Assembly (NCBI GenBank): GCA_011033025.1
Contig: WFMF01000007.1
Span: forward strand, 248,001-312,000
Source of the DNA: Beroe forskalii
Taxonomy: Eukaryota; Ctenophora; Nuda; Beroida; Beroidae
Length of the DNA stretch: 64,000 nt
Direction: 5' to 3'
Below the pieces are notes generated by a model that saw nothing but the letters and a program-made list of their open reading frames with translations, had not been told where the DNA came from and searched no databases. Shown piece by piece: positions 1-42,166 of this stretch (the first letter of the stretch is position 1; each line of letters begins with the position of its first letter). Both the position numbers and the translations under genes were made by a program.

Positions 1-2718
1 ATGGCACAAGCAACTTGAATCACAGATAGTGATTTGGACAGTAAACCTCTTGAACACTGAACCTCTTGACTTCCTTGTGTTCACTGGCTGACTGGCTCAA
101 TGGCTCATGCAGTTATAATGGCGGTGTTAACGGATTTGATATCATTCAACCTTCAAATTAAAGCATCACAAGCTAGCCACTGCTGCAGGCTGTCACCTGA
201 TTTACCCACCTTTAAGGTTTCCTGACAAGGCCCCATATAAGGCCCGTTCTTCAGTTGAAATACCATCACTGTTACAGTAGTCCCAACAACAGCTCTTCCA
301 TAAGGCTCGGTGAAGGTTGCCCTCAACTGCCTCACTGAATGAGAGGTGGTGTGTTGAATGTCGTGTTCGGGAGCACAGTTTGAACTCTTAATAATAAAGT
401 GCTTGATTGATAACGATCGAAGAAAGAGCGTTAGAACATGAAAGTTATCCAGGATTCAATGATATACACTATATCCCAACTTTTAATCTTAAAGTTGGGA
501 CCGTTTGTTCAAGAACTTTGAAGTTTCAAAGTTTGAAGGGTTCAGTTAGAAGTAGTTAGAAGAGCGCATCTAAGATGCACCATAGAACATGGGTACTAGA
601 GAACACACCGTTGAGTGGAGGTCTCGCTGTAGTTAGGATCATTGTACAGTCTCCAGCCGTCAATAACAGCAGCCCTCCAACACTGTCCAGCACTGATGCA
701 CAGTTTCTGAGCCTCGTCACTTTGACCAGCCCGCACCAGACAAAACAGGTGCTTTATCAGCCGGGACTGATCCTCAACATCCAGTTCAGCTAGGGGTTTA
801 CCTGCAAGGAAAACAAATCAGTTTAGGGATAGATATGCAGGCATAGCAAGGATCAATACCTTTTTCTAGACATTAATAACTGCGATTATTTTCATGATTG
901 TTGGGACTTGTGCTTCAGCCCATCTCCGACCTTCATGTGTCTTTTATAATATTGTCAGAATCAGAATCTGAGATAATAAGAAGCACACACACCTTCCCTT
1001 GAAGGAGCGTCAGGGTCCATGGAAGAGACGGTCTTCTTCATTTTCTGGTTACACAGCGTGTGGAAAGTGTTCTCCCACGTCACTTTACCGGAGAAATAAC
1101 CAACCTAGATCAAAGAAAAGTAGGGCATGGCGAGAAACAAATTAATAATTTAGGGTATTTGACATTTGTCAAAATAAGGAGCACAATTCATAAATCCATA
1201 AGCTGGTATTGTGAAAACAAGAAGCTAGAAAGCGGCAGTTCTTACTTTGGTGGGTAGTTCAGGCACAAGTTCCGCCGCATTGCTCTCCAGCCAATCCAGG
1301 ACCACCTGACAATGTCTTATGACGTCATCCTTCAGATAGAGCTTGTTGACGGAGTGCAGGGCGCTGTCTGTGTCGTTGTCTGCATCCTCCTCCAGTAGCG
1401 AGGTGTTCAGTTTGTTCTGGTAGATGGCTCCCAGCAGCTTCCACGTGTACCTAGCAGACGAGGAATCAACAGACAGTCGACACAAGTCATTATAAGGGTG
1501 TTCGCAGTGTTTTAGAGGCCAGAGCTCTTAACTCAAAATCAATAAAAAGCTCCAAAAGCTAGAAAGATGATTCATGACTCATGTTTAAGTGTTCCTATAA
1601 TAGGATGCCGGGCGTGAACCATTTCATAATTGGGGCTAAAAGTGGTAAATTACTGGAGTAGCCTTTTCCGTGAACTCAACGAACTTTACCTTTCGTTGGT
1701 GATGTCAGCACACACGTTCCTAATCTGGAGTGAGAGTTTCTTGCTGTACTTTACGGAGGGTAGCATGTTCTTTGAGTTGTTGTAAAGGTCCTCGCACTGT
1801 AGAGTGAAGGAGCTTACGATGGAGAGGATATCACCTCCTAACAGGTCACGATATCTGGAGGAGTAAGGGGTTAGAGGAGTGTGGGAAGTGGTAACAAGGA
1901 AGGATCAGAGGGAACAAAAAAAAGTTTCATCAGCGTTTCAGTGATGGAGAGACAGACAGGCCCGCCTTGGTGAATTAAAATAATTAACGTAAAGAATTGT
2001 TATTACTATACAGTAAAGATTATCAATTGGTTAAGAGTTAAGAGTAAAAGGCTTACTCAATTCCGCTTACACTTTTGAAAAGCCCTTGATGAGAAGGTTA
2101 GCCGAAGTAATCTTTTCCACGGTATCAGCCATCTCAGGGTTCTGTAGCACGGAATCTGCCACAGACATCTGACTCAAATCCTGGTGCATGGTCACGTCAG
2201 AGGTACTCCCCACCCTCCCTCCACCAATGGAGGTGGTTTCCAGAGGTCCAGACATTCGTCTCGGAGACAAGACGTTCTGGTGGTCGATCAGAGCGATGGA
2301 GTCAAGTTGCCTGTGTTGGAGGGGAGTAGCCCCTGGCATCGGGGATAAACCGATGGATTTGTTTCCGATTCGTTTGGAGGGAGTCAGTGACTCGTCCAGG
2401 GTGCATATCGCACGTTTAATCTCGTGTAACCGATCTGCATATTTGAGGGTAGGTTTCTCTTGGAGAGGAGTGAAGGCATACTCGGCCATACCAACTCAAA
2501 GATCGTGTGGTTTAGATTTAGGATGACAATAAACACAATGTTATTCTATCGAAAATGTGATTCCTGGTGCTCATTCTAGAGCTTTTTTCTAGCAGACTGC
2601 AAGGTTCAAGTTTGCCAAGGGCATGAACTAATGAGTCTGGTTTGTTCGTTCGTCCTGGTACTGTAAATTTCAACTTTTTAAGGAACGAACAAGTCCGAAT
2701 AAGTTATTATGCATTATA
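1..2718. repeat. Left arm of the Nup107 inverted duplication
   Basis: This segment matches, in reverse complement, 12724 to about 19000, apart from a 3.5-kb insertion in the latter (about 15031-18590) and the intron-4 repeat expansion. Exon lengths and splice sites are conserved, and by eye identity is well above 90 percent. The arms are separated by about 10 kb that hold the helicase-topoisomerase gene and the LINE. Confidence 0.75.
210..2489 (-). CDS. NUP107: Nuclear pore protein Nup107, 5' part (exons 1-6), copy 1
   Basis: Nup107 is a scaffold subunit of the Y-complex (Nup107-160) of the nuclear pore. Six exons can be read on the minus strand: 2071-2489 (ATG at 2489), 1690-1854, 1246-1450, 993-1104, 609-801 and 210-334, all with GT donors, AG acceptors and matching phases. 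The N-terminal exon is Ser/Thr/Pro-rich and probably disordered. Exon 5 encodes [16 protein letters not shown] followed by YNDPN, and exon 6 encodes EGN...LWKSCCW and [11 protein letters not shown], which match the conserved Nup107 helical domain. The gene runs off the left edge, so the C-terminal half is not visible; bases 1-209 are intron 6. No frameshift or stop was found in these exons, so this is the better candidate for the working copy. The ATG lies about 445 bp downstream of the stop of the helicase-topoisomerase gene on the same strand. Family call is from recognised motifs, not a search. Confidence 0.85.
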
Positions 2719-2934: not shown

Positions 2935-5900
2935 TCATGTTTTCTGCCGTTTAAAACTGTCTGTTTGGTGAAAAGGGTGGGTTTCCCTCTTCGCACCCCG
3001 ATGCTGTCCTCCTCTGAACTGACCAAACCCTCGACCCCGATTACTGAACCCTCCACGACTATGCTCACCTTGTGAGTCACTACCGTGTGGTCCATTGCTA
3101 TGGAAATCACCCCTACTATGGTTATTAAATGTCCCTCTATTCTGATGGTTTGAAGCCCCTCTACTCTGGTTATTAGCCCCTCTATTCTGATGGTTTTGAG
3201 CTCCACGGAATGATTGACTGGGTCCACCACCTCCTCTTTGACCTCTGAATCCACCCCTTCCCCTACCTCGATTATTAAAACCACGGTCAGAGTAACTGCT
3301 GTATTCGACGTTGTTACTATAGGTGTTATTGCTATTGTTATTGTAGTTGTTGTTATTATTGTAGTTGTTTCCGTGGTTGATGAAAGCTCCTGACGACCCT
3401 CCATCCTCGTCCTTGATACCGAAGTATCTGTCGCATTTGGCGAGGTTTTGTCTGTAGTTGATGAACTTGTTCTTGAAGAGGTTTAAGTTACTCGACACAA
3501 CGTCAGATTTCTCTGTTTCTCCCGTTGCTATCTTTGTTATTTGTTCTTCCATGTAACCTGGGCGGAGGGAAGAATGAGAAACAATTAATTTACCGTCAAT
3601 TTATACCAAATCTAACAAGATAGAACAAATTAGTTATCAATTCGTAATAGGTAAAAAATATAATCGTGTTAGGTTATACTAATATAATTCATATCAAATG
3701 CTTATTCGACAATTTCAACATCAACTCCAATAAATATCAAGGCACACTCCATTACCTCTGATTGCCGGTTCACATAGCTCCGAATCCAGATTCTCAAAGC
3801 AGGAAAGGAAGGCCAGACCGAAGCCCCTTGGCACCATGTGTCTGGAAGCAGGAGGTGGAGGGTTGCCCCCTCCTCTCCCTCCTCCCCCTCTCCCTCCTCC
3901 TCGGTTCTTCTTCCCAAAGAACTTCCTGACGGGAATGACAGTTCCCTTCTGACCGTCCTGTCCAGGACCACACACATCCACGTAGTGACGTTCCTGGATG
4001 TTCTTGATGTGTTGAGGGATAGACGCGTCAGTGCCGATACCGTGCTTGTCCATGAGAGCGATCAGTTCACTTTCTTGCAGGTAATCTGAATAGGAGACAA
4101 TTTTATTTCAAAATTCAAATATTGCATAGCTCAAAGTAAAGGCTTATCATTTAACAACTATAGTCTATTCAGAGTTACAAGATGGCGAGCATTTTGTCAG
4201 TGCGAGACTTGTTAGAAATAACATTCTTACCATTTAAGTAACGGCCAATTAAATTTACCCAACTCAAATGAAATTGGTTCCGACTAGATATGAAACATAA
4301 TATTAATTATATTAATTTCGAATGGTTACATTGTAACAAGTAAGAAGCTATAAACTGAGGTTCACAAACTTTAGATTGTGCATTGGCGACTTGAACTAGT
4401 TTTTCAGGTCTAACTATCGTTTTTCCTCAATAATGCTCTAACTTGATTATATAAAGTCGTGATGTAAAGTTTGAAACCTGGTGGTTTAGTGTACTCTTCC
4501 TCCTTATTCAGTCCATGCACTGGAACGATCATTCCTTGTAGCGACTGATTAGGTGGCAGCTAGGAAGGAAAGATGTTACATGGCCCTATTCACAAATACT
4601 TGCTTTTTAGAGAATTAAAAGTGTTCGATGTCTGTGTATTGCTGGTAAATTTTTCATAAGAAATCATAGTAACAAGACAGGTTGAGCTTAATAGTTCCTT
4701 AAACATGAGAAATATTGAGTTCACTTAACTATTTGATCACACTTACTAGGTTTTAGAACGTGACCTATAAGTAAATGTACCAAAAGCATGAATTGAATAT
4801 TTCAGTAGGTATTACCTGTATCTCGTTAAGCTTCAGGTCTCGTTCTTTCCATGGCATAGCAAAGGTGAAACCCTTGTCGTTGACCTTATGACAGATGAAT
4901 TTGAACTTGTAACCACCAACATCTACAATAACTGAGTGTTCAGTGTACTCGAAGTTATTGTGAAGTGAGGCAATGAAATGCCGGGTTATGTAGTCGTATA
5001 TTTTCCATTCGTTAGGTTTCATGTCTTGACGGTTTGCAGCTCTCATGGGAGTGATAGGAGGATGGTCTCCAGCATCATGCCCCCACGGGAAGGGGGATTG
5101 ATACGACCGTCCTGGGAAAATGATGTGTTGGAAAGGACTACTTAGTAAAGGTACTTAGTAAAGGTACTTAGTAAATAAGGGCAACATTGAATGATCAAAC
5201 TGTGAATCATATAATGGTGTTTGAAATTATGCTAACAAGAAAAATTCAAAACTTCAAGATGTGAAATATAGACAGATCACATTGCAGCATCTATGCTATA
5301 TTGCAGTTTGTAAATGTAAGATCAATGCCTCCTAATAGTTACCCGAAGTAGGAAGGATGCTGAGTGCCCCCAGTTTGGGCTGTTTGACTGTTCACGGAGG
5401 ACAGAGATCAGATCAAACTGTGGAGAATATGCAGTGGTTTCTGTTCGTGGGTAAGAAATCAACCCTGATGTGTAGAGATGTTCTGCTGCATTCATAGCAG
5501 CAGTTGGGGACATTCCCAAACCTTTTGAACATGCTTTCAGTAAGGTCACTGTATTGAGTCCATTAGGCTTGTATGAGCATTTATTTTCTTGCTTTACCTC
5601 AACAACTGTAGCTGATTGCAAGTGATATACTGCATTTTCAATTTGCTGGGCCTCATAATCATTTTCAACTCTATCTTTGATGAACTTTAACTGACAGTTC
5701 TGACCTTGGATATTCGCATTCAAGGTAAATACAAAATATTTTTGGCTCTGAAATGACTGTATTTCACGGTGACGTTTTGCACAAAACCAAAGAGTAGGAG
5801 TTTGACATGGCCCATAGCTGATACATTTCTGATCTTTAAGTCTGAACTTTTGCTTGGCTTGATCAAGATATGTACGAGTCATGAGTCTTGTGAAAGCAAC

Positions 5901-8333
5901 ACCTATTTTAAGATCAAGCTCTTGTCTGGCGTCAACACTCAATGCTGCATACTTATCTGGCTTTATAGGATTATCATATGCATAGTTTAATTCAGTCTTA
6001 GTGAGAGAAGAAAAACGTGCCCTGTAAACATTGTCATAATTAACAAACTCCTGAGCAAGGGAAATAACTTCAAAGCCAATGTTTTCCCCTTCTCTATCAC
6101 AATCTAGCCATAAGTATAGATATTGTGATTCACTAGCAAGTTCTTGGAGGTGCTCAACAACACATAACTTTTTTGAGGTATCTTCAATAACTTTTTTCAC
6201 TGGAGCATCAAAGAGTGTTGATATGTCTTGAACTCTCTGATTTTCAAAGCTAAGCCCAAAAATGTGACCTACCACTGACGTTATCATTAATTTACATCTT
6301 TTTTGTGCAGGCCCAAAGTATTTGATAATTTCAAATATCTGATTTGCTCGGCTTTTTCCTTTCCTTGTTCTATACCTTCCATTAGATGATAAACTATCAG
6401 CAATCATTTTAGCTACTGATGGTTTTTCTGCCACCATCAAAACTTTTTCAAACTGCTCATCCTCAGCAGCTCTACGTTCATTGTTTCTTTGCTGCCTTTG
6501 TTTTAGATCATCAATCAAGTATTGTATTTCCTGAGGAATAGGCTGCCTTGTTTTCTCCATAATTTCAACAATACTTTGAACTTTCCAGATATCTTCATTT
6601 CCACGAGTAACAAAAGTATATGATTCACCAGTGGCACCAGCTCTACCAGTACGACCAATTCTGTGAACATAATCCTCAGCTGAACCTGGCATATCATAGT
6701 TTATAACTGCAGTAAGACCTTTAACATCAAGTCCACGAGATGCAACATCTGTTGCAACAAGAACAGGTAGTCTTCCATCTTTGAACTTTGCTAAAGTTTC
6801 TTCACGAAATGCTTGAGTCCTATCTCCATGCATAGCAGCTGCATGTACACCACAACGTGTCAACATATTGGCAACAAAATTGCAGGTATTTTTCCTAGCA
6901 ACAAATAAAAGAATATTATCCCCCTGATGGGCTATTTTTCTCCTAATTAAATTCACAGTTTCATTGTCCTTATCATCTGCAGAAGGAAGTGGAATGAGAT
7001 ATTGATGTATGTTCTCATTGGCTTGGAGATTATCCTGATCTCCAAGTCGTATATGTATGGGGTTAGACAAAAAGTCATCTGCAAGTCTTCTTACTTCTTC
7101 AGGCCAAGTTGCTGAAAACATGAGAGTTTGCTTTCTTCTAGGCAATCTTTTAAGAATAGACCGAATTTGAGGCTCAAAACCCATATCAAGCATTCTATCT
7201 GCTTCATCCATAACCAGATAAAACACTGATGATACATCAATTTGCTGGGAGTCAAGGAAGTCATTAAGCCTTCCTGGGGTAGCAATAAGAACATTGACAC
7301 CACTATTGATTGCTTGTAGCTGCTCTCTTTTAGGTGCACCTCCATATGCGATTGCAGTGCCATAACCAGCAATACTTCCAAATTTATCAGCTTCTTCTTG
7401 TATTTGAACAGCAAGCTCACGAGTAGGAGCCAATACCAATACACATATTGGTTTATGTGAACCTTTGAAACGTTGGTCTATTTTATGATAAGCAGGAAGT
7501 AAGAATGCAAGAGTCTTTCCAGATCCAGTTTTAGCTATAGATACAACATCCCTTTCTTTGACTGCAATTGGCCATGTCTGGGCTTGTATTGGTGTAGGAG
7601 CTTGGAAACCAGATTCAAAAAACTTTCTTAATTGAATATCCTTTACACCAGGGAGATCATTAAACCTTTCAATAGGATCTGGAACAGGTGCCTTTCCAGT
7701 GGCATCCCACACAACAAGTCCATGTTGCTGCCGATAAACATTTGAGTCAGCATGCCTATGCCTTTCTAGGTCATCAGGCAGACAACCTAATGATGATTTT
7801 GATGTTACTAACTGAGAGTAGTTTTTTACAGCAGCACCCATATCACCAAATTCACTCATGGGACAAGTTTTATTGGCATTAGATGGCTTTTCAATATTAT
7901 TAGTGTCAACTAAAACCTGGGCAAGATTTTCTGTGAAAGGCACTTTTGTAGATTGGCTCTGCAATGGGGTTTGATATTGAGCTTGGTACTGTTGGTTAGG
8001 GGACCCATGAGATGTGGATTGATGTCCTTGCAAATAGACCTGGTTGTTGATAACTGGATTGGGTTGAAAATTTACTGCTGCTACTTGGGATGTCTGAGGA
8101 TACTCCATGGCATTGAAAGCATGATTTGGCATGATTTGCTGAGTATAGTGAGTAGGGTTCAAGCCAGTAGATAAACTTGCTTCACCACTACCTAAAGTCT
8201 GGGGCTGGCATTGGTAGTTTTGTCCAACAGTTGACACACAGGGGGCATTCAATTGGGGATTATATTGAACATAATTTGGGTACTGATTATAAGGTGGCTG
8301 ATTTGTAAGGCCAGCATGTGGAGGATATGACAT
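2935..8333 (-). CDS. TOP3B: DEAD-box RNA helicase fused to topoisomerase III-beta (5 exons)
   Basis: Exon 1 (5343-8333) encodes 997 residues in one frame. Residues 1-140 are rich in Gln, Asn, Tyr and Pro. A DBP2/DDX5-type helicase follows: Q motif GFQAPTPIQ at 242, AKTGSGKT at 267, PTRELA at 303, DEAD at 376, SAT at 407, RGLD at 533, HRIGRTGR at 557. After a charged linker (about 605-629) comes a type IA topoisomerase: TOPRIM start KVLMVAEKPS at 630, DCDREGE at 744, SYGPCQTPTL at 839, and SYPRTET with catalytic Tyr961. Exons 4816-5111, 4478-4559, 3756-4085 and 2935-3557 continue TOP3B (HDAGDHPPITPM, HGIGTDASIPQHI), with an RGG insert in exon 4 and an Asn/RGG-rich C-terminus instead of the usual zinc fingers. 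TOP3B acts on DNA and RNA. Exon 2 is one base short in a G5 run (5080-5084). The start is the first ATG of the frame, with a plausible 5'UTR splice acceptor at 8394. Helicase and topoisomerase assignments are strong; that one protein is made is inferred. Confidence 0.85.
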
Positions 8334-10225: not shown

Positions 10226-12443
10226 ATGGACCATACATCTCAAAGTGTTCCAGTTACAGCTACTGAAGATAATGAAGAAACTACTAATGGGTGTTTATCT
10301 GAATGCAGTAATTCAAGTTGGAACAACAAGCGGAAATTTGTTCAGTCTTATGCATATAATGGTAATAAATCTCCTTCTGTAAGGTCACCTAGCTACAAAA
10401 AGACTGCTGGCTCAAGAAATCAATGTCCCTGTTTACGTGTTGTAAATGATTCATGTTATATAACATGTGAGTCTTGCAGTCAATGTTACCACTGCAAATG
10501 TGTTGGTCTTGGTGAATTGCCACAAACTGCTGTTGAGTTACTTCTAACTTGGAAATGTTTCTCATGTTTCAAGCCGACCTTTCATAAACTATCAAAGAAA
10601 GCTGAGATTGATTACAGGGCCATTGTGAAAGAGGAAGTACAAAATGCTTGTACAACAACAATCAAGGATATGGTTGTTACTGCAACCCAACAGGCAATTG
10701 TCAAGGCCACTAAGGGCCTTGTAGAAGAAGTTTCAAGGAAAACGAATGAATCTGTTAAGACGTTTGCAGAGGTAACGGCCAAGAAATCAAAGGAAGTTCA
10801 AAAGAAGATTGTAGAGGATGTCAAAGAAGCTACAGCTTCTACTGTCATTATTGGGGAGGTATGTTTTAAAAATGGATACTGACCAAGCAGAAAGGGAGCG
10901 CAGAAAATGTAATGTTATTATAAACAGTATTCCAGAACATGGTGGGTCATTGACTGGGCAAGAAACTTGGGATAAAGATGTTGAATTCCTTTGTGAAAAG
11001 TTGAGATGAATTTCAATGAAATAAAAAACTGCTTCAGGACTGGTTCCTATAAAAGAATTCTGATGGAACAACTAATCCAAGACCTCTGGTTGTGATCATG
11101 AAAATGAGGAAATTGCTAAGTATTGGCATGATTTTGGAAGGGTTATCGCATCAGAGGAACTGATTTTGGGTCAATCCTGATCTTTGCCGGACTGATAGGC
11201 ATACTTCTTTTTTTAGCTCAGGAACGGAGGAGCAGACTGGAAAAACGAGTTCCAGCACCAAAAGTAAATCAGCCATAACTCCTAAGTCATCAAGAAAGAT
11301 AAGAAACAGTCTCCTGAATGTTTTCTATACAAATGCTTGTTGTTTAACAAACAAAATGACTGAGTTGAAGCATCTCATATCAGTGAATCAATATGACATA
11401 GTTTGTGTTACTGAAACACATTTCTATGATGGACTTACTAGGGCAGAATGTAAGATTCCTGGTTTCAACCCTTATCGTGCTGACAGGAATTTCAAACTTG
11501 ATAGGTCAACTAATTACAATCAAATCAGTGAATGTGGAGGTTCTATCATCTATGTCAATCAAAGTATTGAGATCCTTAATTGTAAAACAGGGCCAGACTC
11601 TATTGCAGTATCTTTAGAGTGTGACATTGGAAAAGTTTTGATTGGTTGTGTTTATAGATCTCCTTCATTGAACAAACGCCAAAGATTTGAAGCTTTTAGA
11701 ATTTGTAAAAGAAATTTTTTCACTGATGAGAATCATATTGCAAAATTTTGTTATGGAGATTTAATCTCTCATGTGTCTTGGCAATCAGGTACAATGACAG
11801 GTATGAATGATTCTGTCAACAGTACAGTTTGCATGCAAAAACTGTATTTGGATTTTATTCATGAGTTGGGAGTTTCATGGTTATTAACATCAGAATCTAC
11901 ACGAAGGAGACTAAATAAAGTAACTGGTGTATTGAATGAAAGTTTACTAGACCAACTTTTGTTCACTGAAGAAAACCTTGTCAATGAATATAAGCTTGGT
12001 CCTCACTTAGGCAAGAGTGACCATGTAACTCTTACTACAGAACTCAATGTATCACAGTCCTCAAAGTTAGAAGAAAACAAAGTTACAAATGAAGAAAGAA
12101 GATGTTGGTCTAAAGTAACCTCTGAGGAGATCCTACAATGGTCACATGAAATATCCTGGAACTTAGATCCTGATGAAGTTGATGATATGTCTGTGAATGA
12201 ACTATGGTCAATAATTTTGAGAAATTGAATGTTATGTCAGATAGAGTTCCACTTCAAAATGTTACAAATAATATTGATATTAATTATAGTGCACCTTGGG
12301 TAAATAGATCATTGAAAAGAGCCATAAGAAACAAAAATAAAGCCTGGAATGTTTTTGATGTGAATCCTAATGTAAGAAACTGGAGTTTAGCATTGCTCAG
12401 AAAATTTTTTTGTAATAACTTATTTTCCCTAAATTTCCGATAA
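10226..12443 (+). mobile_element. CR1/L2-like non-LTR retrotransposon, 3'-truncated and decayed
   Basis: The first ORF (10226-10879) has a PHD-like Cys/His cluster (CPC...CESCSQCYHCKC...WKCFSC, about residues 65-115) and a Lys/Glu-rich helical stretch. A frame change near 10860 leads to an RRM-like start (RERRKCNVIINSIPE). A second ORF (11356-12228) is an apurinic-type endonuclease: DIVCVTETHF near the start, GCVYRSPS in the middle, and LDQLLFTEENLV...LGKSDHVTL near the end, as in CR1 and L2 elements. A shifted frame (12204-12443) holds the linker before reverse transcriptase (APWVNRSLKRAIRNKNKAW). The GDFN-type motif is degenerate and the reverse transcriptase itself is missing. It is therefore a dead copy cut off soon after the endonuclease. 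It sits between the two inverted Nup107 copies. Confidence 0.8.
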
Positions 12444-12924
12444 CGTCGTCCTAAATATTTACATGCCTCAGAAAAAAATTTTAAAAAAACATAAAAATTT
12501 TAAAAAACAACATCTCGACAGCTTTAATCATTAACGTAATAGGGGTAACACTACTTTACGAACAACTTTATGTTGCACGTGCGCAAATATCCAACTCCAT
12601 AGCAACGGGCACCTCATTTCTCCTGTTTGCATTCGTTTTCCTTGATATTTTCTTGGCAAGCTCAAATTTACTGTGTACGGAGCACAAACATTATTCACGT
12701 GCTCTTACGAAATTATAATTAAGATAATGCATAATTACTTTTTTGGACTTGTTCGTTCATTAAAAAGTTGAAATTTACAGTACCAGGACGAACGAACAAA
12801 CCTACTCATGAAGTGCTCTCTAGAATGAGCACCAGGAATCACATTTCGAACATTTTTTAAGAATAACAATGTTTCCACCGTTTTTTAACATCATAAATCT
12901 AAACCACACGATCTTTGAGTTGGT
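12444..12924. other. AT-rich interval and copy of the Nup107 upstream region
   Basis: From about 12724 this is the inverted counterpart of the sequence upstream of Nup107 copy 1. The left part holds only AT-rich sequence after the LINE; nothing else is recognised. Confidence 0.5.
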
Positions 12925-14673
12925 ATGGCCGAGTATGCCTTCACTCCTCTACAAGAGAAACCTACCCTCAAATATGCAGACCGGTTACACGAAATTAAAC
13001 GTGCTATATGCACCCTGGACGAATCACTGACTCCCTCCAAACGAATCGGCAACAAATCCATCGGCTTATCCCCCATGCCAGGGGCTACTCCTCTCCAACA
13101 CAGACAACTTGACTCCATCGCCCTGATCGACCACCAGAACGTCTTGTCTCCGAGACGGATGTCTGGACCTCTGGAAACCACCTCCATTGGTGGAGGGAGG
13201 GTGGGGAGTACCTCTGATCTGACCATGCACCAGGATTTGAGTCAGATGTCTGTGGCAGATTCCGTGCTACAGAACCCTGAGATGGCTGATACCGTGGAAA
13301 AGATTACTTCGGCTAACCTTCTCATCAAGGGCTTTTCAAAAGTGTAAGCGGAATTGAGTAAGCATCTTGCTCTAAACTTTTAAGCAATTGTTAATCTTTA
13401 CAATCAATAATGGAGAATCTCCATTATTTTGGAGATGTAACATAGTTATAACAATTCCATACTTTAGTTGTTGAAATTCACCAAGGCGGGCATGTCTGTC
13501 TCTCTGTTACTGAAACACTGACCAAACCTTTTCTGTTCCCTCTGATCTTTCCTTGTCACCTCTTCCCACAATACTCCACGACCCTGGCTCACTCCCCCTT
13601 CCCACTCAATCCCACTCACCCCACTCCTACTCCCAACTCTCACTCCCACTCCCCTACTCCTCTGACTTCTTACTCCTCCAGGTATCGTGACTTGTTAGGA
13701 GGTGATATCCTCTCCATCGTAAGCTCCTTCACTCTACAGTGCGAGGACCTTTACAACAACTCTAAGAACATGCTACCTTCCGTAAAGTACAGCAAGAAAC
13801 TCTCACTCCAGATTAGGAACGTGTGTGCTGACATCACCAACGAAAGGTAAAGTTCGTTGAGTTCATGGAAAAGGCTGCTCCAGTAATTTCCCACGCCCGG
13901 CACCCTCTATTCGTTTGCACCCGATCATTAGCACTTGAACATTGTCATGAATCATCTTTCCAGCTTTTGGAGCTCCTTATTGTTTTTTTAGTTTAGACTT
14001 TAGAGCTCTGGCCTCGTAAACACCGCGAATTTAACCATCATAGTGACTAGTGTCGACTGTCTGTTAAGCTGTTAATTCCTCGTCTGCTAGGTACACGTGG
14101 AAGCTGCTGGGAGCCATCTACCAGAACAAACTGAACACCTCACTGCTGGAGGAGGATGCAGACAACGACACAGACAGCGCCCTGCATGCTGTCAACAAAC
14201 TGTATCTGAAGGATGACGTCATACGACATTGTCAGGTGATCCTGGATTGGCTGGAGAGCAATGCTGCGGAACTAGTGCCAGAACTACCCACCAAGGTTAG
14301 AACTGCTGATTTCTCTAGCTAGTCCCCAAACTACCCACCAAGGTAAGAACTGCCGATTTCTGGCTTCTTGTTTTCACAATACCAGCTTATGGATTTATGA
14401 ATTGTGCTCCTTATTTTGACAAATGTCAAATACCCTAAATTATTAATTTGTTTCCCGCCATGCCCTACTTTTCTTTGATCTAGGTTGGTTATTTCTCCGG
14501 TAAAGTGACGTGGGAGAACACTTTCCACACGCTGTGTAACCAGAAAATGAAGAAGACCGTCTCTTCCATGGACCCTGACGCTCCTTCAAGGGAAGGTAGG
14601 TTTGCTTCTTATTATCTCATCTGATTCTGACAATATTATGAAAGACACATGAAGACTGAAGGTATTGATTCCA

Positions 14674-14876
14674 GCTATGCCTGCATGTCTACCCCTCAAC
14701 TGATGTGTTTCCCTTGCTATGCCTCTACCCCTCAACTGATGTGTTTCCCTTGCTATGCCTGCATGTCTACCCCTCAACTGATGTGTTTCCCTTGCTATGC
14801 CTCTACCCCTCAACTGATGTGTCTCCCTTGCTATGCCTGCATGTCCACCCCTCAACTGATGTGTTTCCCTTCCACA
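14674..14876. repeat. 36/42-bp tandem repeat in intron 4 of Nup107 copy 2
   Basis: About five units built on CCCCTCAACTGATGTG with alternating spacers (CTATGCCTGCATGTCTA or CTATGCCTCTA). Copy 1 has a single unit at the matching place (about 800-860), so the expansion happened after the duplication. The array runs up to the exon 5 acceptor and is open in both strands by virtue of its repeat composition. Confidence 0.8.
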
Positions 14877-15030
14877 GGTAAACCCCTAGCTGAACTGGAT
14901 GTTGAGGATCAGTCCCGGCTGATAAAGCATCTGTTTTGTCTGGTGCGGGCTGGTCAGAGTGACGAGGCTCAGAAACTGTGCATCAGTGCTGGACAGTGTT
15001 GGAGGGCTGCTGTTATTGACGGCTGGAGAC

Positions 15031-18000
15031 TTTTTTGGAGTTTGCCAAAAAGTGTTTGCCAAAGTTTGCCATAGTTTGCCAAAGTTTGCCAAAATTTGCC
15101 AAAGTTTGCCAAAAATACTCCAAAATTTTTTAATTTCTGATTTGTTGTCCACAGTGCATGCAGGACATGTGCATAATGGTTTTCTAAGGAGCTGAATCGA
15201 TTTCCAATGATAAATTTCATTCAGACCTTCCCCTTCGAGGCTTTACGCCTTAACCTTTCCCCTCCAAGCACCGTTTTGTTTTCAAAAAGGTATCCTGTGG
15301 CTAAAGGACCAGGTTTAGAAATTTCGAGAACATTTTGGTTCGAGAAAAGAGATTTATAATTCCCAGGCATGGATCCATGTATCTACTATCTACTTATCTC
15401 TTACCAGTTCATCTGCTAACGTGTCTTGGGCAAAATGGTACCATTAGCATCCATGGAGGCTGAGTGGAGGCTAAGTGGAGGCTAAGCCTCCACGGAAACT
15501 GAAATGTAACATTTTCATGGAGGCTCCACTAGGCTCCACTCAGCCTCCAAATGACTCCACTAGGCTCCAGGCAGCCTCCACTAGGCTCTACTAGGCCACC
15601 ACTCAGCCTCCACTAGGCTCTACTAAGCCTCTACTAGGCTCTACTCAGCCTCCACTAGGCTCCACACAGCCTCCACTATGCTCAACACAGCCTCCACCAG
15701 GCTCCACTCAGCCTTCACTTGGCTCCACTCAGCCTCCATTAGGTACTACTCAGCCTCCACTAGGCTCCACAGAGCCTCCACCAGGCTCCACAGAGCCTCC
15801 ACTAGGCTCCACAGAGCCTCCACCAGGCTCCACAGAGCCTCCACTAGGCTCCACTCAGCCTCCACTGGGCTCCACAAAGCCTTCATTAGGATCCACTCAC
15901 TCTCCACGAGGTTCCACTCAGCGTTAACTAGTAGTGGAGGCTGTGTGGAGCCCAGTAGAGGCTGGAGACACTCAGCCTCCACTGGCCTCCACTCAGCCTC
16001 CACTGGCCTCCACTCAGCCTCCACTCAGCCTCTACTAGGTACGACTCAGCCTCCACTAGACTCAGCCTCCACACACACTCACACAGCCTCCACTATTAGT
16101 GAAGGCTGAGTGGAGCATAGTGGAGATTGAGCTATTGAGTGGAGCCTAGTGGAGGCTGAGTGGAGCCACATAGCCCTACTAGGCCTCACTCAGCTTCCAC
16201 TCACTCTCCACTATGCTCCACTCAGCCTTCACTAGTAGTGGGGGCTGTGTGGAGGCTGAGTTGTGGGGAGCCTAGTAGAGGCCTTGTAGAACCTAGTGGT
16301 CCACTAGGATCCACTCAGTCTCCACTAGGCTCCACACAGCCTCCACTAATCTCCACTCAGCCTCCACTAAGCTCCACAGAGCCTCCACTATTAGTGTAGG
16401 CTGAGTGGAGCATAGTGGAGATTGAGTGTAGCCTAATGGAGGCTGAGTGAGGCCTAGTGGAGGCTGAGTGGAGCCTAGTTGACCACTAAGCACTACAAGG
16501 CATCTAGTCTCTACTAGTCTACTAGGCTCCCCACAGCCTCCACTAGGCTCCACTCAGCTTCCACACAGCCCCCACTACTAGTGAAGGCTGAGTGGAGCAT
16601 AGTGGAGAGTGAGTGGAGGCTGAGTGAGGCCTAGTAGGGCTGTGTGGCACCACTCAGCCTCAACTAGGCTCGACAAAACCTCCACTAGGCACCACTCAGC
16701 CTCCACTAGGCTCCACACAGTCTCCACTAGGCTCTACAAAGCCTCAGATAGGCTCCCCACAGCCTCCTCTAGGCTACACGCAGGCTCCACTAGGCTCCAC
16801 TCAGCCTCCACTACAATTAGTGAAGGCTGAGTTGAGCATAGTGGAGAGTGAATGGAGCCTAATGGAGGCTGTGTGTAGCTTAGAAGAGGCTGTGAGGAGC
16901 CTAGAAGAGGCTTACTGAAGACTAGTGGGGGCTGTGGTGAGCCTAGTCGAGGCTTTGTTGAGCCTAGTGAGGCTTAAGTGGTGCCTAGTGGAGGCTGAGT
17001 GGAGCCTTATGGAGGCTGAGTGAGGCCTAGTGGGGCTGAGTGTAGCCTTGTGGACCACTGGGCTCTTCAGAGCCTCTACTAGGCTCCTTCAGCTTCCCCT
17101 AGGCTCCACTCAGCCTCCACTTGGCTCCACTCAGCCTCCACTAGGCTCGACAAAGCCTCGACTAGGCTCACCACAGCTTCCAATAGTCTTAAGTAAGCCT
17201 CTTTTAGGCTCCTCACAGCCTCCACTAGGCTCCACTCAGCCTCCACTAGTCTTCAGTAAGCCTCTTCTAGGCTCGGTCGTCATGGTAGGACCTTACTATT
17301 GATTTTAGGCTGCTGGAACAGACTTATGAAGCGTGGATGCTTCGGTTTTAGGGCTTTATACAATGGTTTGTGGAGGCTGAGTGGAGCCTAGTGGACCACT
17401 AGGCACTATAAGGCCTCTACTAGGCTCCCCACAGCCTCCACTAGGCTCCACTCAGCTTCCACACAGCCCCCACTACTAGTGAAGGCTGAGTGGAGCATAG
17501 TGGAGAGTGAATGGAGGCTGAGTGAGGCCTGGTAGGGCTGTGTGGCACCACTCAGCCTCCACTAGGCTACACGAAGGCTCCACTAGACTCCACTCAGCCT
17601 CTAGGCTCTACTACAACTAGTGAAGGCTGATTTGAGCACAGTGGAGAGTGAGTGTAGCCTAATGGAGGCTGTGTGTAGCTTAGAAGAGGCTGTGAGGAGC
17701 CTAGAAGAGGCTTACTCAAGACTAGTGGAGGCTGTGGTGAGCCTAGTCGAGGCTTTGTCGAGCCTAGTGGAGGCTGAGTGGAGCCTTATGGAGGCTTAGT
17801 GAGGCCTAGTAGGGCTGAGTGTAGCCTAGTGGACCACTGGGCTCTTCAGAGCCTCTACTAGGCTCGTTCAGCTTCCACTAGGCTCCACTCAGCCTCCACT
17901 AGGCTCCACTCAGCCTCCACTAGGCTCCACTCAGCCTCCACTTGGCTCCACTCAGCCTCCACTAGGCTCCACTCAGCCTCCACTAGGCTCCACTCAGCCT

Positions 18001-18590
18001 CCACTAGGCTCAACAGGCCTCGACTAGGCTCACCACAGCTTCCAATAGTCTTAAGTAAGCCTCTTTTAGGCTCCTCACAGCCTCCTCTAGGCTACACACA
18101 GCCTCCACTAGGCTCCACTCAGCCTCCACTAGTCTTCAGTAAGCCTCTTCTAGGCTCAGTGGTCATGGTAGGGCCTTACTATTGATTTTTATTCGGCTGG
18201 AACAGACTTATGCAGCGTGGATGCTTCGGCTTTATACTTTTATATAATGATTTGATCGGACTACTTAGTACTTAAATGCATAAAGCTTAAAGTAAGAGGC
18301 AATGAAATATCTTATTTGTTACTGTAGCCTTCTTCTCGGATCAATGTAGATGTGGTCTGTGCTACAGCTTCTGGATAACGTCAAAATGTGAAACAGACCT
18401 TGGGAATCGATTCAGCATCCTTGAAAAGCATATTATGGGTACCTAAAGTGTTGCCAAAGTGCTCAAAAAGGTGTTTTATTTTTGGCAAACTTTGGCAAAC
18501 TTTGGCAAATGCTTCCACTTTTTTTGGAGTTTGCCAAAAAAAGTGTTTGCCAAAGTTTGCCATAGTTTGCCAAAGTTTGCCTTACCTCCC
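15031..18590 (+). mobile_element. Minisatellite-bearing element (copy E1), left end truncated
   Basis: The edges are clusters of GTTTGCCAAA repeats (15035-15115 and 18477-18582). Inside them are conserved blocks (about 15180-15460 and 18180-18450), and the centre is a 21-bp minisatellite. The right end reads GTTTGCCTTACC followed by a C run. The left end begins directly in Nup107 exon 5 without the matching G run, so it is truncated. No transposase ORF is seen; long frames inside are products of the 21-bp unit. The element is best called a non-autonomous DNA element, by comparison with the fuller copy at 21477-25041. Confidence 0.6.
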
Positions 18591-20850: not shown

Positions 20851-23800
20851 TTACCTTAGCATAAGCAAAATAGTGGTCCAAGACTATGTTAACAATGAAT
20901 GTAAATTTGTAAGCTACTACTATCATACTCATGGATTCGATGATTGAGTCCAGAGAGTCTCATGTTCCAGTAGTCTTGAGGGAGTAGGGAGTCACAGAGT
21001 TCATCCTCAACTTGCTGGTCAATGAGGGTTTTAATGTGGGCCCAGAGGATGTCAGCGAAGGAGGAACAAACCGGCATCATAGCTGAAATATTAGCAGTTA
21101 TAGAAAGGATAAGTCAATGACACAAGCAACTTGATTCAAAGATAGTGATTTGGACACCTATATCTCTGGATAATAAAACGAATATGAAAGATGACCGACC
21201 TACCTTTAGGTTTCCTGACAAGGCCCCCATAAGGCCCGTTCTCAGTTGATATACCATCACTGTTACAGTAGTCCCAACAGCAGCTCTTCCATAAGGCGCA
21301 GAAGGTTGCCCTCAACTGCCTCACTGATGGGAGTTGGTAAGGTGAATGTCGTGTTCGGGAGCACAGTTTGAAATTGATACCTTACTTCAGAAGTATACTT
21401 CAGAAGTATGAAAAATCTTTTAATCTTAAAGTTGGGAACATTTGTTCAAAGTTTGAAGAGAAGTTAGGACTAGTTAGGGGGAGGTAGGCAACTTTTATGG
21501 CAAACTTTGGCAAACACTTTTTTGGCAAACTCAAAAAAGTGGAAGCATTTGCCAAAGTTTGCCAAAGTTTGCCAAAAATAAACACCTTTTGAGCACTTTG
21601 GCAACACTTTAGGTACCCATAATGTGCTTTTCAAGGATGCTGAATCGATTCCCAAGGTCTGTTTCACATTTTGACGTTATCCAGAAGCTGTAGCACAGAC
21701 ACATCCACATTGAATTGAGTAGAAGGCTACAGTAACAAATATACGATATTTCATTGCCTCTTACTTTAAGTTTTATGCATTTAAGTACTAAGTAGTCCGA
21801 TCAAACCATTGTATAAAGCCCTAAAACCGAAGTATCCACGCTTCATAAGTCTGTTCCAGCCGAATAAAAATCAATAGTAAGGCCCTACCATGACCACTGA
21901 GCCTAGAAGAGGCTTACTGAAGACTAGTGGAGGCTGAGTGGAGCCTAGTGGAGGCTGTGTGTAGCCTAGAGGAGGCTGTGAGGAGCCTAAAAGAGGCTTA
22001 CTTAAGACTATTGGAAGCTGTGGTGAGCCTAGTCGAGGCCTGTTGAGCCTAGTGGAGGCTGAGTGGAGCCTAGTGGAGGCTGAGTGGAGCCTAGTGGAGG
22101 CTGAGTGGAGCCAAGTGGAGGCTGAGTGGAGCCTAGTGGAGGCTGAGTGGAGCCTAGTGGAGGCTGAGTGGAGCCTAGTGGAAGCTGAACGAGCCTAGTA
22201 GAGGCTCTGAAGAGCCCAGTGGTCCACTAGGCTACACTCAGCCCCACTAGGCCTCACTAAGCCTCCATAAGGCTCCACTCAGCCTCCACTAGGCTCGACA
22301 AAAAGCTCGACTAGGCTCACCACAGCCTCCACTAGTCTTGAGTAAGCCTCTTCTAGGCTCCTCACAGCCTCTTCTAAGCTACACACAGCCTCCATTAGGC
22401 TACACTCACTCTCCACTGTGCTCAAATCAGCCTTCACTAGTTGTAGTAGAGCCTAGAGGCTGAGTGGAGTCTAGTGGAGCCTTCGTGTAGCCTAGTGGAG
22501 GCTGAGTGGTGCCACACAGCCCTACCAGGCCTCACTCAGCCTCCATTCACTCTCCACTATGCTCCACTCAGCCTTCACTAGTAGTGGGGGCTGTGTGGAA
22601 GCTGAGTGGAGCCTAGTGGAGGCTGTGGGGGGAGCCTAGTAGAGGCCTTATAGTGCCTAGTGGTCCACTAGGCTCCACTCAGCCTCCACAAACCATTGTA
22701 TAAAGCCCTAAAACCGAAGCATCCACGCTTCATAAGTCGTTTCCAGCAGCCTAAAATCAATAGTAAGGTCCTACCATGACGACCGAGCCTAGAAGAGGCT
22801 TACTGAAGACTAGTGGAGGCTGAGTGGAGCCTAGTGGAGGCTGTGAGGAGCCTAAAAGAGGCTTACTTAAGACTATTGGAAGCTGTGGTGAGCCTAGTCG
22901 AGGCTTTGTCGAGCCTAGTGGAGGCTGAGTGGAGCCAAGTGGAGGCTGAGTGGAGCCTAGGGGAAGCTGAAGGAGCCTAGTAGAGGCTCTGAAGAGCCCA
23001 GTGGTCCACAAGGCTACACTCAGCCCTACTAGGCCTCACTCAGCCTCCATAAGGCTCCACTCAGCCTCCACTAGGCACCACTTAGCCTCCACTAGGCTCA
23101 ACAAAGCCTCGACTAGGCTCACCACAGCCCCCACTAGTCTTCAGTAAGCCTCTTCTAGGCTCCTCACAGCCTCTTCTAAGCTACACACAGCCTCCATTAG
23201 GCTCCATTCACTCTCCACTATGCTCAACTCAGCCTTCACTAATTGTAGTGGAGGCTGAGTGGAGCCTGCGTGTAGCCTAGAGGAGGCTGTGGGGAGCCTA
23301 GTCGAGGCTTTGTAGAGCCTAGTGGAGACTGTGTGGAGCCCAGCGGAGGCTGAGTGGTGCCTAGTGGAGGTTTTGTCGAGCCTAGTTGAGGCTGAGTGGT
23401 GCCACACAGCCCTACTAGGCCTCACTCAGCCTCCACTCACTCTCCACTATGCTCCACTCAGCCTTCACTAGTAGTGGGGGCTGTGGAAGCTGAGTGGAGC
23501 CTAGTGGAGGCTGTGGGGAGCCTAGTAGACTAGTAGAGACTAGATGCCTTGTAGTGCTTAGTGGTCAACTAGGCTCCACTCAGCCTCCACCAGGCCTCAC
23601 TCAGCCTCCACCAGGCTACACCCAATCTCCACTATGCTCCACCCAGCCTACACTAATAGTGGAGGCTCTGTGGAGCTTAGTGGAGGCTGAGTGGAGATTA
23701 GTGGAGGCTGTGTGGAGCCTAGTGGAGACTGAGTGGATCCTAGTGGACCACTAGGTTCTACAAGGCCTCTACTAGGCTCCCCACAACTCAGCCTCCACAC

Positions 23801-24993
23801 AGCATCCACTACTAGTGAAGGCTGAGTGGAGCATAGTGGAGAGTGAGTGGAAGCTGAGTGAGGCCTAGTAGGGCTGTGTGGCACCACTCAGCCTCCACTA
23901 GGCTCCACTCAATAGCTCAATCTCCACTATGCTCCACTCAGCCTTCACTAATAGTGGAGGCTGTGTGGAGTCTAGTGGAGGCTGAGTCGTACCTAGTAGA
24001 GGCTGAGTGGAGCCTAGTGGAGGCCAGTGGAGGCTGAGTGGAGGCCAGCGGAGGCTGAGTGTCTCCAGCCTCTACTGGGCTCCACACAGCCTCCACTACT
24101 AGTTAACGCTGAGTGGAGCCTCGTGGAGAGTGAGTGGATCCTAATGAAGGCTTTGTGGAGCCTAGTGGAGGCTGAGTGGAGCCTAGTGGAGGCTCTGTGG
24201 AGCCTGGTGGAGGCTCTGTGGAGCCTAGTGGAGGCTCTGTGGAGCCTGGTGGAGGCTCTGTGGAGCCTAGTGGAGGCTGAGTAGTACCTAATGGAGGCTG
24301 AGTGGAGCCAAGTGAAGGCTGAGTGGAGCCTGGTGGAGGCTGTGTTGAGCCTAGTGGAGGCTGTGTGGAGCCTAGTGGAGGCTGAGTAGAGCCTAGTAGA
24401 GGCTTAGTAGAGCCTGGTGGAGGCTGAGTGGTGGCCTAGTAGAGCCTAGTGGAGGCTGCCTGGAGCCTAGTGGAGTCATTTGGAGGCTGAGTGGAGCCTA
24501 GTGGAGCCTCCATGAAAATGTTACATTTCAGTTTCCGTGGAGGCTTAGCCTCCACTTAGCCTCCACTCAGCCTCCATGGATGCTAATGGTACCATTTTGC
24601 CCAAGACACGTTAGCAGATGAACTGGTAAGAGATAAGTAGATAGTAGATACATGGATCCATGCCTGGGAATTATAAATCTCTTTTCTCGAACCAAAATGT
24701 TCTCGAAATTTCTAAACCTGGTCCTTTAGCCACAGGATACCTTTTTGAAAACAAAACGGTGCTTGGAGGGGAAAGGTTCAGGCGTAAAGCCTCGAAGGGG
24801 AAGGTCTGAATGAAATTTATCATTGGAAATCGATTCAGCTCCTTAGAAAACCATTATGCACATGTCCTGCATGCACTGTGGACAACAAATCAGAAATTAA
24901 AAATTTTGGAGTATTTTTTGGCAAACTTTGGCAAATTTTGGCAAACTTTGAACTATGGCAAACTTTGGCAAACACTTTTTTTGGCAAACTCCA
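20851..24993. repeat. Right arm of large palindrome
   Basis: Reverse complement of 15035-19235. It carries relics of Nup107 exon 7 (about 20923-21080) and exon 6 (about 21207-21330) on the minus strand. Both are damaged: exon 6 has a short deletion after the EGN codons and exon 7 a 2-bp loss in a CT run. Confidence 0.8.
20923..21330 (-). pseudogene. NUP107: Nup107 exon 6-7 relics in the palindrome arm
   Basis: The minus strand encodes MMPVCSSFADILWAHIK at 21080-20923, and the exon 6 region with [15 protein letters not shown] at about 21330-21207. Indels break both frames. They exist only because the palindrome copied them and have no other exons in register. Confidence 0.75.
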
Positions 24994-26610: not shown

Positions 26611-26835
26611 TCAGTATATGCAAAAATAGGCTCATCTGTGCAAAAATTCAGGAACTTATCCCGCTATGTTATTTGTGCTTCTTATCATGTTAGAAAACAT
26701 ATAAGCCCAGGAGTATTGAAAAATACCTTGGGGAAACTCGAAAATTGACCACGCCCTTTTCCGACCGTGGGAAAATTTATCGATCACAGAGAAAATAAAT
26801 TTATTGACATATATAGCATGATGGGTGTCTAAACC
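26605..26835. repeat. Block P (first copy) next to the 162-bp satellite
   Basis: The same block occurs at 30520-30720 (inverted) and 38480-38700. It includes the hairpin-forming CCACGCCCTTTTCCGACCGT region and always lies at the end of a 162-bp satellite run. It is non-coding; the 60-residue frame found in all three copies has no recognised domain. Confidence 0.7.
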
Positions 26836-27645
26836 CATGTTTTTTGGGACGCTGAATCGATTGCAAGGGTTATTTTTAGTCTCTGACCATCATATAAGTC
26901 ATTAGTGACCACGCCCACCCTTTAGCGTGGGAATTTTTGAGTCATTTTCACATGATATTTTTCCAAATCAAACTGTGGCATGTTAGGTGTCTAAACCCAT
27001 GTTTTTTGGGACGCTGAATCGATTGCAAGTGTTACTTTTAGTCTCTGACCATCACATAAGTCATTATTGACCACGCCCACCCTTAAGTGTGGGAATTTTT
27101 GAGTCATTTTCACATGATATTTTTCCAAATCAAACTGTGGCATGTTAGGTGTCTAACCCCATGTTTTTTGGGACGCTGAATCGATTGCAAGTGTTATTTT
27201 TAGTCTCTGACCATCACATAAGTCATTATTGACCACGCCCACCCTTTAGCATGGGAATTTTTGAGTCATTTTCACATGATATATTTCCAAATCAAACTGT
27301 GGCATGTTAGGTGTCTAAACCCATGTTTTTTGGGACGCTGAATCGATTGCAAGTGTTACTTTTAGTCTCTGACCATCACATAAGTCATTATTGACCACGC
27401 CCACCCTTTAGTGTGGGAATTTTTGAGTCATTTTCACATGATATTTTTCCAAATCAAACTGTGGCATGTTAGGTGTCTAACCCCATGTTTTTTGGGACGC
27501 TGAATCGATTGCAAGGTCTATTTTTAGTCTCTGACCATCATATAAGTCATTAGTGACCACGCCCACCCTTTAGCTTGGGAATTTCTGAGTCATTTTCACA
27601 TGCTGTATTTTCAAACCAAGCAACACACAAGTCACAAATCTTCTT
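26836..27645. repeat. 162-bp satellite, five units
   Basis: The landmark GCTGAATCGATTGCAAG occurs at 26851, 27013, 27175, 27337 and 27499, exactly 162 bp apart each time. Every unit has GACCACGCCCACCCTTTAGC and GAGTCATTTTCACATGATAT. The run is cut at about 27665 by a fragment of the minisatellite-bearing element. Confidence 0.9.
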
Positions 27646-27675
27646 TCATCAGTAGGGCAATTCATTACTTTAAGT

Positions 27676-29715: not shown

Positions 29716-30720
29716 TGTGTCTCATTGAATTCCCTAATTTTCAGCCCCTTTCTCATTTATTGATACTTGACTGCCATATTTTGCTGGAGCTCGCTTCTGA
29801 ATTCATAACATTCAAATTATTTTGCCTGAAGTTTTAATTACAATTGAAGTTTTTAGTTGCAATACTTTAGATTCGATTCCGTAGTACGATATCCAACATA
29901 ACTCTATTAAAGTATTAACATAATATTGTGTTCAGGATGATTCAGTATGAACTGAGTATCTAACTGGAATGATCCTGTTGCCGTTGGATCTGAAGATCAA
30001 GATTTACCACAAAATAAATTGCCCTACTGATGAAAGAAGATTTGTGACTTGTGTGTTGCTTGGTTTGGAAAAATATCATGTGAAAATGACTCAAAAATTC
30101 CCACACTTAAGGGTGGGCGTGGTCAATAATGACTTATGTGATGGTCAGAGACTAAAAGTAACACTTGCAATCGATTCAGCGTCCCAAAAAACATGGGTTT
30201 AGACACCTAACATGCCACAGTTTGATTTGGAAATATATCATGTGAAAATGACTCAAAAATTCCCATGCTAAAGGGTGGGCGTGGTCAATAATGACTTATG
30301 TGATGGTCAGAGACTAAAAGTAACACTTGCAATCGATTCAGCGTCCCAAAAACATGGGTTTAGACACCTAACATGCCACAGTTTGATTTGGAAAAATATC
30401 ATGTGAAAATGACTCAAAAATTCCCACGCTAAAGGGTGGGCGTGGTCACTAATGACTTATGTGATGGTCGGAGACTAAAAATAACCCTTGCAATCGATTC
30501 AGCGTCCCAAAAAACATGGGTTTAGACACCCATCATGCTATATATGTCAATAAATTTATTTTTTCTGTGATCGATAAATTTTCCCACGGTCGGAAAAGGG
30601 CGTGGTCAATTTTCGAGTTTCCCCAAGGTATTTTTCAATACTCCTGGGCTTATATGTTTTCTAACATGATAAGAAGCACAAATAACATAGCGGGATAAGT
30701 TCCTGAATTTTTGCAGGGTA
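29716..30720. repeat. Inverted composite: linker, three 162-bp units, block P
   Basis: A unique linker (29716-30060) leads to three satellite units in reverse orientation (landmarks at 30171, 30333 and 30494), then to block P (30520-30720). The whole order recurs at 38480-39768 in the other direction, showing that the composite moves or duplicates as one piece. Confidence 0.8.
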
Positions 30721-31060
30721 CATGCGTCAAATGAGAAATTGCCTTTTATCACTTCCTGTACATTGTAAACGATTGAAATCAGTGTAATACGTATTGAAGA
30801 TAACAACATCATGTCCTGACTTAATTCCAATGGCTGTGATAGCTTTAACTCTCAGAAACCACATACATGCAACTGAAAACAAGAATTCCTAGGATATTCA
30901 TGCAATTTTGGAGGCTACTAGTATTGTCCCTATTGAATGACTTCTCAAAATTTTCAGCCTTAGCATAAGTTTACACATCCATTTTCACTCTACAACGTTG
31001 TTTATGATGAACATGCATCTAATTAGGTGCTAATTGGATTTTTGTCCAGCCCACTGTTTT

Positions 31061-42066: not shown

Positions 42067-42166
42067 NNNNNNNNNNNNNNNNNNNNNNNNNNNNNNNNNN
42101 NNNNNNNNNNNNNNNNNNNNNNNNNNNNNNNNNNNNNNNNNNNNNNNNNNNNNNNNNNNNNNNNNN
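42067..42166. other. Assembly gap, 100 N
   Basis: Exactly 100 undetermined bases, the usual placeholder for a gap of unknown size. It lies at the end of the C-rich minisatellite. Order and distance across it are not assured. Confidence 0.99.

Follow-up and report, generated by a model that had tools for sequence, protein, structure and literature searches.

The fused gene and its exons

The 64,000-nucleotide stretch of Beroe forskalii DNA analyzed here as a whole (contig WFMF01000007.1, positions 248,001 to 312,000; "the window", in whose own numbering all positions are given) carries on its minus strand a gene in which a DEAD-box helicase and the first half of a TOP3B-type topoisomerase are encoded by a single continuous frame (8333-5343, 997 codons without a stop). 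This frame is bounded upstream by in-frame stop codons and downstream by a donor GT, and the in-frame fusion of the two enzymes is present in the genome assembly. The original prediction for this region gave the right coordinates without naming a strand, and the order it proposed, a helicase followed by TOP3B in one chain, is borne out by the open frame, the succession of Pfam matches and the motifs. It also stated that all key residues are present, which agrees with our finding that every one tested is kept, although the frame breaks in exon 2. It covered neither the four downstream exons with the frame change in exon 2 nor the RGG tail at the C-terminus and the lack of zinc fingers. The gene is composed as follows:

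5343..8333, minus strand: coding exon 1, the fusion exon (997 codons), with the initiator ATG at 8333 and the splice donor GT at 5342-5341
7719..8333, minus strand: N-terminal extension (residues 1-205), rich in Q/N/P/S
6519..7718, minus strand: DEAD-box helicase core (residues ~206-605), matched by Pfam and by solved structures
6450..6518, minus strand: linker of 23 residues (606-628), 11 of them charged
5343..6449, minus strand: N-terminal half of TOP3B (residues 629-997), with the TOPRIM residues and the catalytic Y961
4816..5111, minus strand: coding exon 2, TOP3B core (HDAGDHPPIT...), within which the reading frame shifts
5080..5084, minus strand: five consecutive G of exon 2, where the frame that matches TOP3B changes
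4478..4559, minus strand: coding exon 3 (GT-AG, fitting phase)
3756..4085, minus strand: coding exon 4, continuing the TOP3B core (DKHGIGTDASIP...) and bearing an RGG/PPPP insertion
2935..3557, minus strand: coding exon 5, in which the TOP3B core ends and an RG/RGG-rich tail follows; the stop codon ends at 2935

The remaining two sense frames of exon 1 hold 47 and 107 stops, the plus-strand reading of 5343-8333 is packed with stops, and shuffling the bases of the exon 200 times gave open frames of at most 183 codons. Pfam finds in the exon 1 protein, in this order, DEAD (E=9e-48), Helicase_C (2e-31), Toprim (1e-13) and Topoisom_bac (2e-44). The helicase motifs AKTGSGKT, PTRELA, DEAD, SAT and HRIGRTGR are found at residues 267, 303, 376, 407 and 557, and in the topoisomerase part EKPSVAK, DCDREGEN and SYPRTET lie at 636, 744 and 960 (Tyr961). 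The N-terminal residues 1-221 have no match among solved structures at E<=10, and an Rfam scan yielded no match at gathering score. All four introns are GT-AG, with phases that agree from 5079 onwards, and exons 2-5 carry on human TOP3B colinearly from HDAGDHPPIT... to DKHGIGTDASIP... and beyond, with 72 of 148 aligned residues identical.

Relationships of the two enzymes

Among solved structures, the helicase part scores best with yeast DBP2 (348 bits) and human DDX17 (344 bits), followed by vasa (280 bits), so that its top-scoring solved relatives belong to the DBP2/DDX5/DDX17 group. It differs from them not only in being joined to a topoisomerase: it is 47% identical to DBP2 and 47% to DDX17, whereas DBP2 and DDX17 share 63%, and in an unrooted tree of six sequences these two form a pair (87% support) with the fusion helicase outside it on a long branch. 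Because of this level of identity and this position in the tree, we regard the helicase as nearest to the p68 family but apparently on a divergent branch of it, and not as a plain DDX5 orthologue, even though its DEAD-box motifs are intact. The DBP2/DDX5 type named in the original prediction is thus the closest family among solved structures, with the divergence as a necessary qualification. The helicase may also resemble the plant RH14/RH46 helicases.

By its scores the topoisomerase part stands nearer to TOP3B than to TOP3A or bacterial enzymes. The half encoded by exon 1 matches TOP3B with 247 bits, TOP3A with 203 and the next enzyme with 65 among solved sequences, and the C-terminal half matches TOP3B with 159 bits and TOP3A with 69. 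In exon 1, 156 of the 358 residues aligned with human TOP3B are identical (44%), and E636, K637, D744, D746, E748 and Y961 correspond to human E9, K10, D117, D119, E121 and Y336. Both the Lys after the first Glu (E636-K637) and the Pro after the Tyr (Y961-P962), which are described in PMC10969213 as marks of topoisomerase III, are kept. The tail in exon 5 contains 16 RG and 4 RGG motifs; an RGG box is reported to be important for the activity of TOP3B on RNA (PMC10969213, PMC12585913). Human TOP3B also bears zinc fingers (PMC11743793), which have been reported to influence its activity (PMC12585913). There is only 1 cysteine in exon 5 and there are 3 in exon 4, and therefore the zinc fingers of the human protein are absent from the fusion. 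Judged by these comparisons, we class the topoisomerase part as a divergent TOP3B core and not a standard TOP3B.

A further departure from human TOP3B concerns the surface that binds TDRD3. Only 1 of the 9 human TOP3B positions listed in PMC5296760 as touching TDRD3 is identical in the fusion (V264), and the remaining ones are changed (human to fusion: V262D, F265E, D266N, I269E, M272Q, F273I, M276A, P437G); V262D, F265E, I269E and M272Q introduce polar or charged residues into the greasy patch of the TDRD3 surface. These replacements hint that TDRD3 binding may have been lost, but faintly, since the surrounding stretch (human 240-299) is poorly conserved anyway, with 13 of 59 residues identical.

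The original prediction compared the chain with reverse gyrase, and as far as domain order is concerned the comparison is apt: like the enzyme of archaea and thermophilic bacteria, the fusion is a single polypeptide with a superfamily 2 (SF2) helicase module and then a type IA topoisomerase. This shared order is what would speak for a genuine reverse gyrase in a eukaryote, able to supercoil DNA positively, yet such an enzyme is hardly credible here. The reverse gyrase family model TIGR01054 gives 101.2 bits against a cut-off of 471.7 and covers residues 717-971 only, i.e. the topoisomerase part, and none of the 24 solved sequences that match the TOP3B half bears the name reverse gyrase. Relative to DBP2, the insertions across residues 216-603 measure 1, 1, 2 and 2 residues; because none exceeds two residues, the fusion evidently has no latch, the element reported to be essential for positive supercoiling (PMC8191776). 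The fusion further differs from reverse gyrase in that its helicase is of the DEAD-box RNA helicase type with intact motifs and its topoisomerase is of the TOP3B type.

Among the Foldseek matches listed, one half of the fusion falls on DEAD-box folds, with Dbp2 in first place, and the other on folds of TOP3B/TOP3A; these matches are DEAD-box helicases or complexes containing one, plus TOP3B or TOP3A, and none is titled reverse gyrase among the 50 listed of 970 at E<=0.001. In the viral structure library, helicases and topoisomerases are separate proteins among the 50 matches listed. The underlying AlphaFold2 model (residues 195-997, 16 alignment rows) has a mean predicted local distance difference test score (pLDDT) of 70 and a predicted template modelling score (pTM) of 0.41. 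In this model the linker is a helix (601-625, pLDDT ~58-70) that reaches the first TOPRIM strand (629-635), so in the protein it is possibly helical.

Relatives of the fusion protein were sought in collections of viral and prokaryotic contigs. The exon 1 protein has 9 relatives among 17 candidate stretches from viral contigs, all 9 of which match helicase residues only. None of the candidate stretches for the TOP3B half proved to be related, either in viral contigs (0 of 72) or in genome contigs (0 of 63). The TOP3B core segment has no relatives among 14 candidates from viral contigs, while 15 of the 65 candidates from genome contigs are related, all 15 of them titled archaeal. In each of these 15 archaeal topoisomerase III relatives the frame leaves no room for a helicase (open reading frames of 600-879 residues, starting near TOPRIM), and Pfam detected a helicase domain in none of the 9 that were scanned. 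No description of a helicase-TOP3B fusion came up in text searches of a library of open-licence papers.

Integrity of the junction

The window is repetitive, with palindromes whose arms are 98-99% complementary and one gap, and one could suppose that a helicase gene and a TOP3B gene were brought together by an assembly or library chimera. The base composition offers some ground for this suspicion: third-position GC is 0.27 in exon 1 (270/997) and 0.48 in exons 2-5 pooled (208/431; 0.38-0.59 by piece; p=2e-14). The two enzymes, by contrast, are joined in frame within one exon, with TOP3B kept from its second residue. Within exon 1 third-position GC is 0.21 in the helicase part and 0.30 in the TOP3B part; these values differ (p=0.006), but both lie far below those of the neighbouring genes (0.56-0.64 in the NUP107 exon pieces, 0.49-0.74 in five exon segments of the dehydrogenase genes), and this speaks against the two parts having been misjoined. 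A sixth dehydrogenase segment, without an in-frame reading, was left out. There is also no repeat at the junction: the segment 6300-6600, compared with the window, matches only itself, besides chance hits of 16 and 18 bases. The sole run of N in the window is at 42067-42166, away from the junction, and no second copy of the helicase or of TOP3B was found elsewhere in the 64-kb window. We therefore consider a chimera quite improbable.

The third-position GC of exon 1 is close to that of the introns (0.30-0.32), and exon 1 resembles an old segment without introns, in which silent positions have drifted to the background composition while the frame has stayed open. An unusual origin of this exon, possibly cDNA-derived or foreign, could account for the sharp difference from exons 2-5. 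With the other two sense frames rich in stops and third-position GC near the intron level, the simplest reason for the open frame would be purifying selection.

The start of the TOP3B part bears on whether the two enzymes are made as one protein. Human K2 aligns with E629, and in the column just past the alignment Phe628 stands opposite the start Met of the human protein; the first Met of the TOP3B part is M633, within the stretch VLMVAEKPS. Because of the Phe at the position of the human start and the location of M633, the TOP3B part lacks a start codon of its own where TOP3B ordinarily begins. M633 is nevertheless near the TOP3B start, and a separate TOP3B might be produced from the same locus by an internal promoter, initiation at M633 or alternative splicing, with the fused frame being incidental. 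However, a start at M633 would cut off part of the first TOPRIM strand as modelled, and by eye the linker has no acceptor with a pyrimidine tract; we think it very improbable that the locus makes two proteins in this way.

The frame change in exon 2

Across the end of exon 1 and the opening codons of exon 2 (DGRINPPSRG), the alignment with human TOP3B runs uninterrupted to the Gly that precedes HDAG, and from GHDAGDHPP on the match with human TOP3B sits in a different frame of exon 2. The residues that this second frame encodes upstream of GHDAG do not align with human TOP3B. Alternative splicing that would carry the second frame from the start of exon 2 was considered and rejected, as we saw by eye no suitable donor or acceptor and the upstream residues could not be aligned. 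The frame change reflects either a base-call error or a broken allele. We saw no further stop and no other shift of frame in the five exons modelled, and for this reason an error in calling the homopolymer is the simplest cause.

If the allele is broken, the gene could be a dying or dead chimeric copy: the fusion would have arisen, perhaps with an old cDNA-derived, intron-free exon 1, and its function would have been lost through the frame change. That human TOP3B is matched in different frames on the two sides of the break agrees with this, as does the inverted duplication of the adjacent NUP107 exons, a sign of a rearranging locus. On the other hand, the break sits in a homopolymer and is the only one in the modelled exons, and every splice site is intact, as are exons 3-5 and the part of exon 2 downstream of the break; a gene long dead would not be expected to keep them so. 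A broken copy therefore seems unlikely to us.

Other features of the window

The inverted duplication just mentioned (648-2717, minus strand, and 12724-15031, plus strand; pieces 83-95% identical) places NUP107-type exons on either side of the fusion gene, and a Pfam match to Nup84_Nup100 is found in the window. This match, the dehydrogenase-like exon noted below and the intron layout point indirectly to an animal gene. A 141-codon open frame (stop included) in the duplicated copies shows 14 base differences, of which 13 are silent and 1 changes an amino acid; given this excess of silent differences, both NUP107-type copies look constrained. At 15080-18315 and 21741-24950 lies a long palindrome of a 21-bp tandem satellite, with arms mostly 98-99% complementary, which may be real or an assembly fold-back. 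Repeat units of ~162 bp, direct and inverted and up to 99% identical, occur at 26639-27666, 30013-30734 and 38487-39154. Farther along there are three tandem copies of an apparent short-chain dehydrogenase gene (45734-47773, 50086-51701 and 55517-57051), an assignment based on one scanned exon whose match to adh_short (E=9e-5) is under the Pfam cut-off. Two open frames at 10226-12228 (plus strand) have no Pfam match at E<=0.01; they resemble parts of a LINE-type retrotransposon.

Possible function of the fusion protein

The two enzyme families joined in this gene have been reported as partners. A fly study reports both a biochemical and a genetic association of Top3b with p68, and its authors proposed that p68 unwinds RNA and Top3b relieves stress, with the two activities coupled (PMC6251927). 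R-loops are reported to be resolved by TOP3B in coordination with DDX5 (PMC10657456, PMC13352852), and according to the review in PMC13352852 the human TOP3B-DDX5 pair binds without TDRD3. Because these papers report TOP3B acting with DDX5/p68, the view that the fusion acts on RNA or R-loops gains strength, and we consider such a substrate plausible. The fusion would make permanent, in a single polypeptide, a pairing for which human and fly cells use separate proteins. Whether it also stands in for TDRD3 can be put as a possibility only, because the sources disagree on this factor: depletion of TDRD3 is reported to lower the amount of p68 found with fly Top3b (PMC6251927), whereas the review calls TDRD3 dispensable in flies (PMC13352852).

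A number of observations weigh against the fusion as a working gene of this kind. The five exons total 4322 nucleotides, no multiple of three, and as written the protein would stop after 22 codons of exon 2 and lose about half of the topoisomerase core. Exon 1 departs sharply from exons 2-5 in third-position GC, the TOP3B part has no zinc fingers, and the AlphaFold2 model is of moderate quality, with unreliable contacts between domains. The fusion was seen at one locus in one genome, and no second one was found in the viral and prokaryotic contigs, which says little. As to the partnership itself, RNase treatment is reported to reduce the p68 peptides in fly Top3b and TDRD3 precipitates about tenfold or to abolish them, and therefore the link between Top3b and p68 in flies would be largely via RNA; the Top3b-Rm62 double mutant also does not fit simple coupling, and the authors want further work (PMC6251927). 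Taking these points together with the continuous frame, the conserved residues and the intact junction, we conclude that the locus probably represents a eukaryotic gene fusion, in which a helicase from the neighbourhood of DBP2/DDX5 is joined in frame, via a charged linker, to a TOP3B core with an RGG tail.

If this gene is expressed and the two activities are coupled, as we infer, the protein could work in the following way. Driven by ATP, the helicase would part RNA duplexes or RNA:DNA hybrids (R-loops) and in doing so generate single strand as well as local twist; the topoisomerase tethered to it would cut, pass and reseal that single strand, thereby relieving the linkage made by the helicase, while the RGG tail and the low-complexity N-terminus would hold the RNA. 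We tentatively suggest, as a possibility that goes well beyond the fusion as such, that the protein may be a self-contained eukaryotic helicase-topoisomerase acting on RNA or R-loops, with a motor like p68 joined to a TOP3B freed from TDRD3 and the zinc fingers, and in that sense an RNA-side counterpart of reverse gyrase which couples ATP-driven unwinding to single-strand passage.

Among the closest known systems is human TOP3B with DDX5/p68, which shares with the fusion the same two enzyme families, the same catalytic residues and an RGG-rich tail; the fusion differs in being one chain, without zinc fingers, with a divergent helicase and with most of the TDRD3-contact residues changed. BLM-TOP3A and PICH-TOP3A have motors of the RecQ or SNF2 type. 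Unlike the fusion, they are separate proteins and their substrates are DNA. What they have in common with it is that a helicase or translocase works with a type IA topoisomerase (PMC6251927, PMC8191776).

A natural one-chain version of the TOP3B-DDX5 pair, if true, would be evidence that evolution finds this partnership worth fixing. The fusion would set both the stoichiometry of the two enzymes and the distance between them, and would offer a single protein for measuring how far RNA unwinding and strand passage are coupled. To our knowledge, the layout of a helicase followed by a type IA topoisomerase is otherwise known only from reverse gyrase, and the ctenophore gene, if true, would represent an independent origin of this layout.

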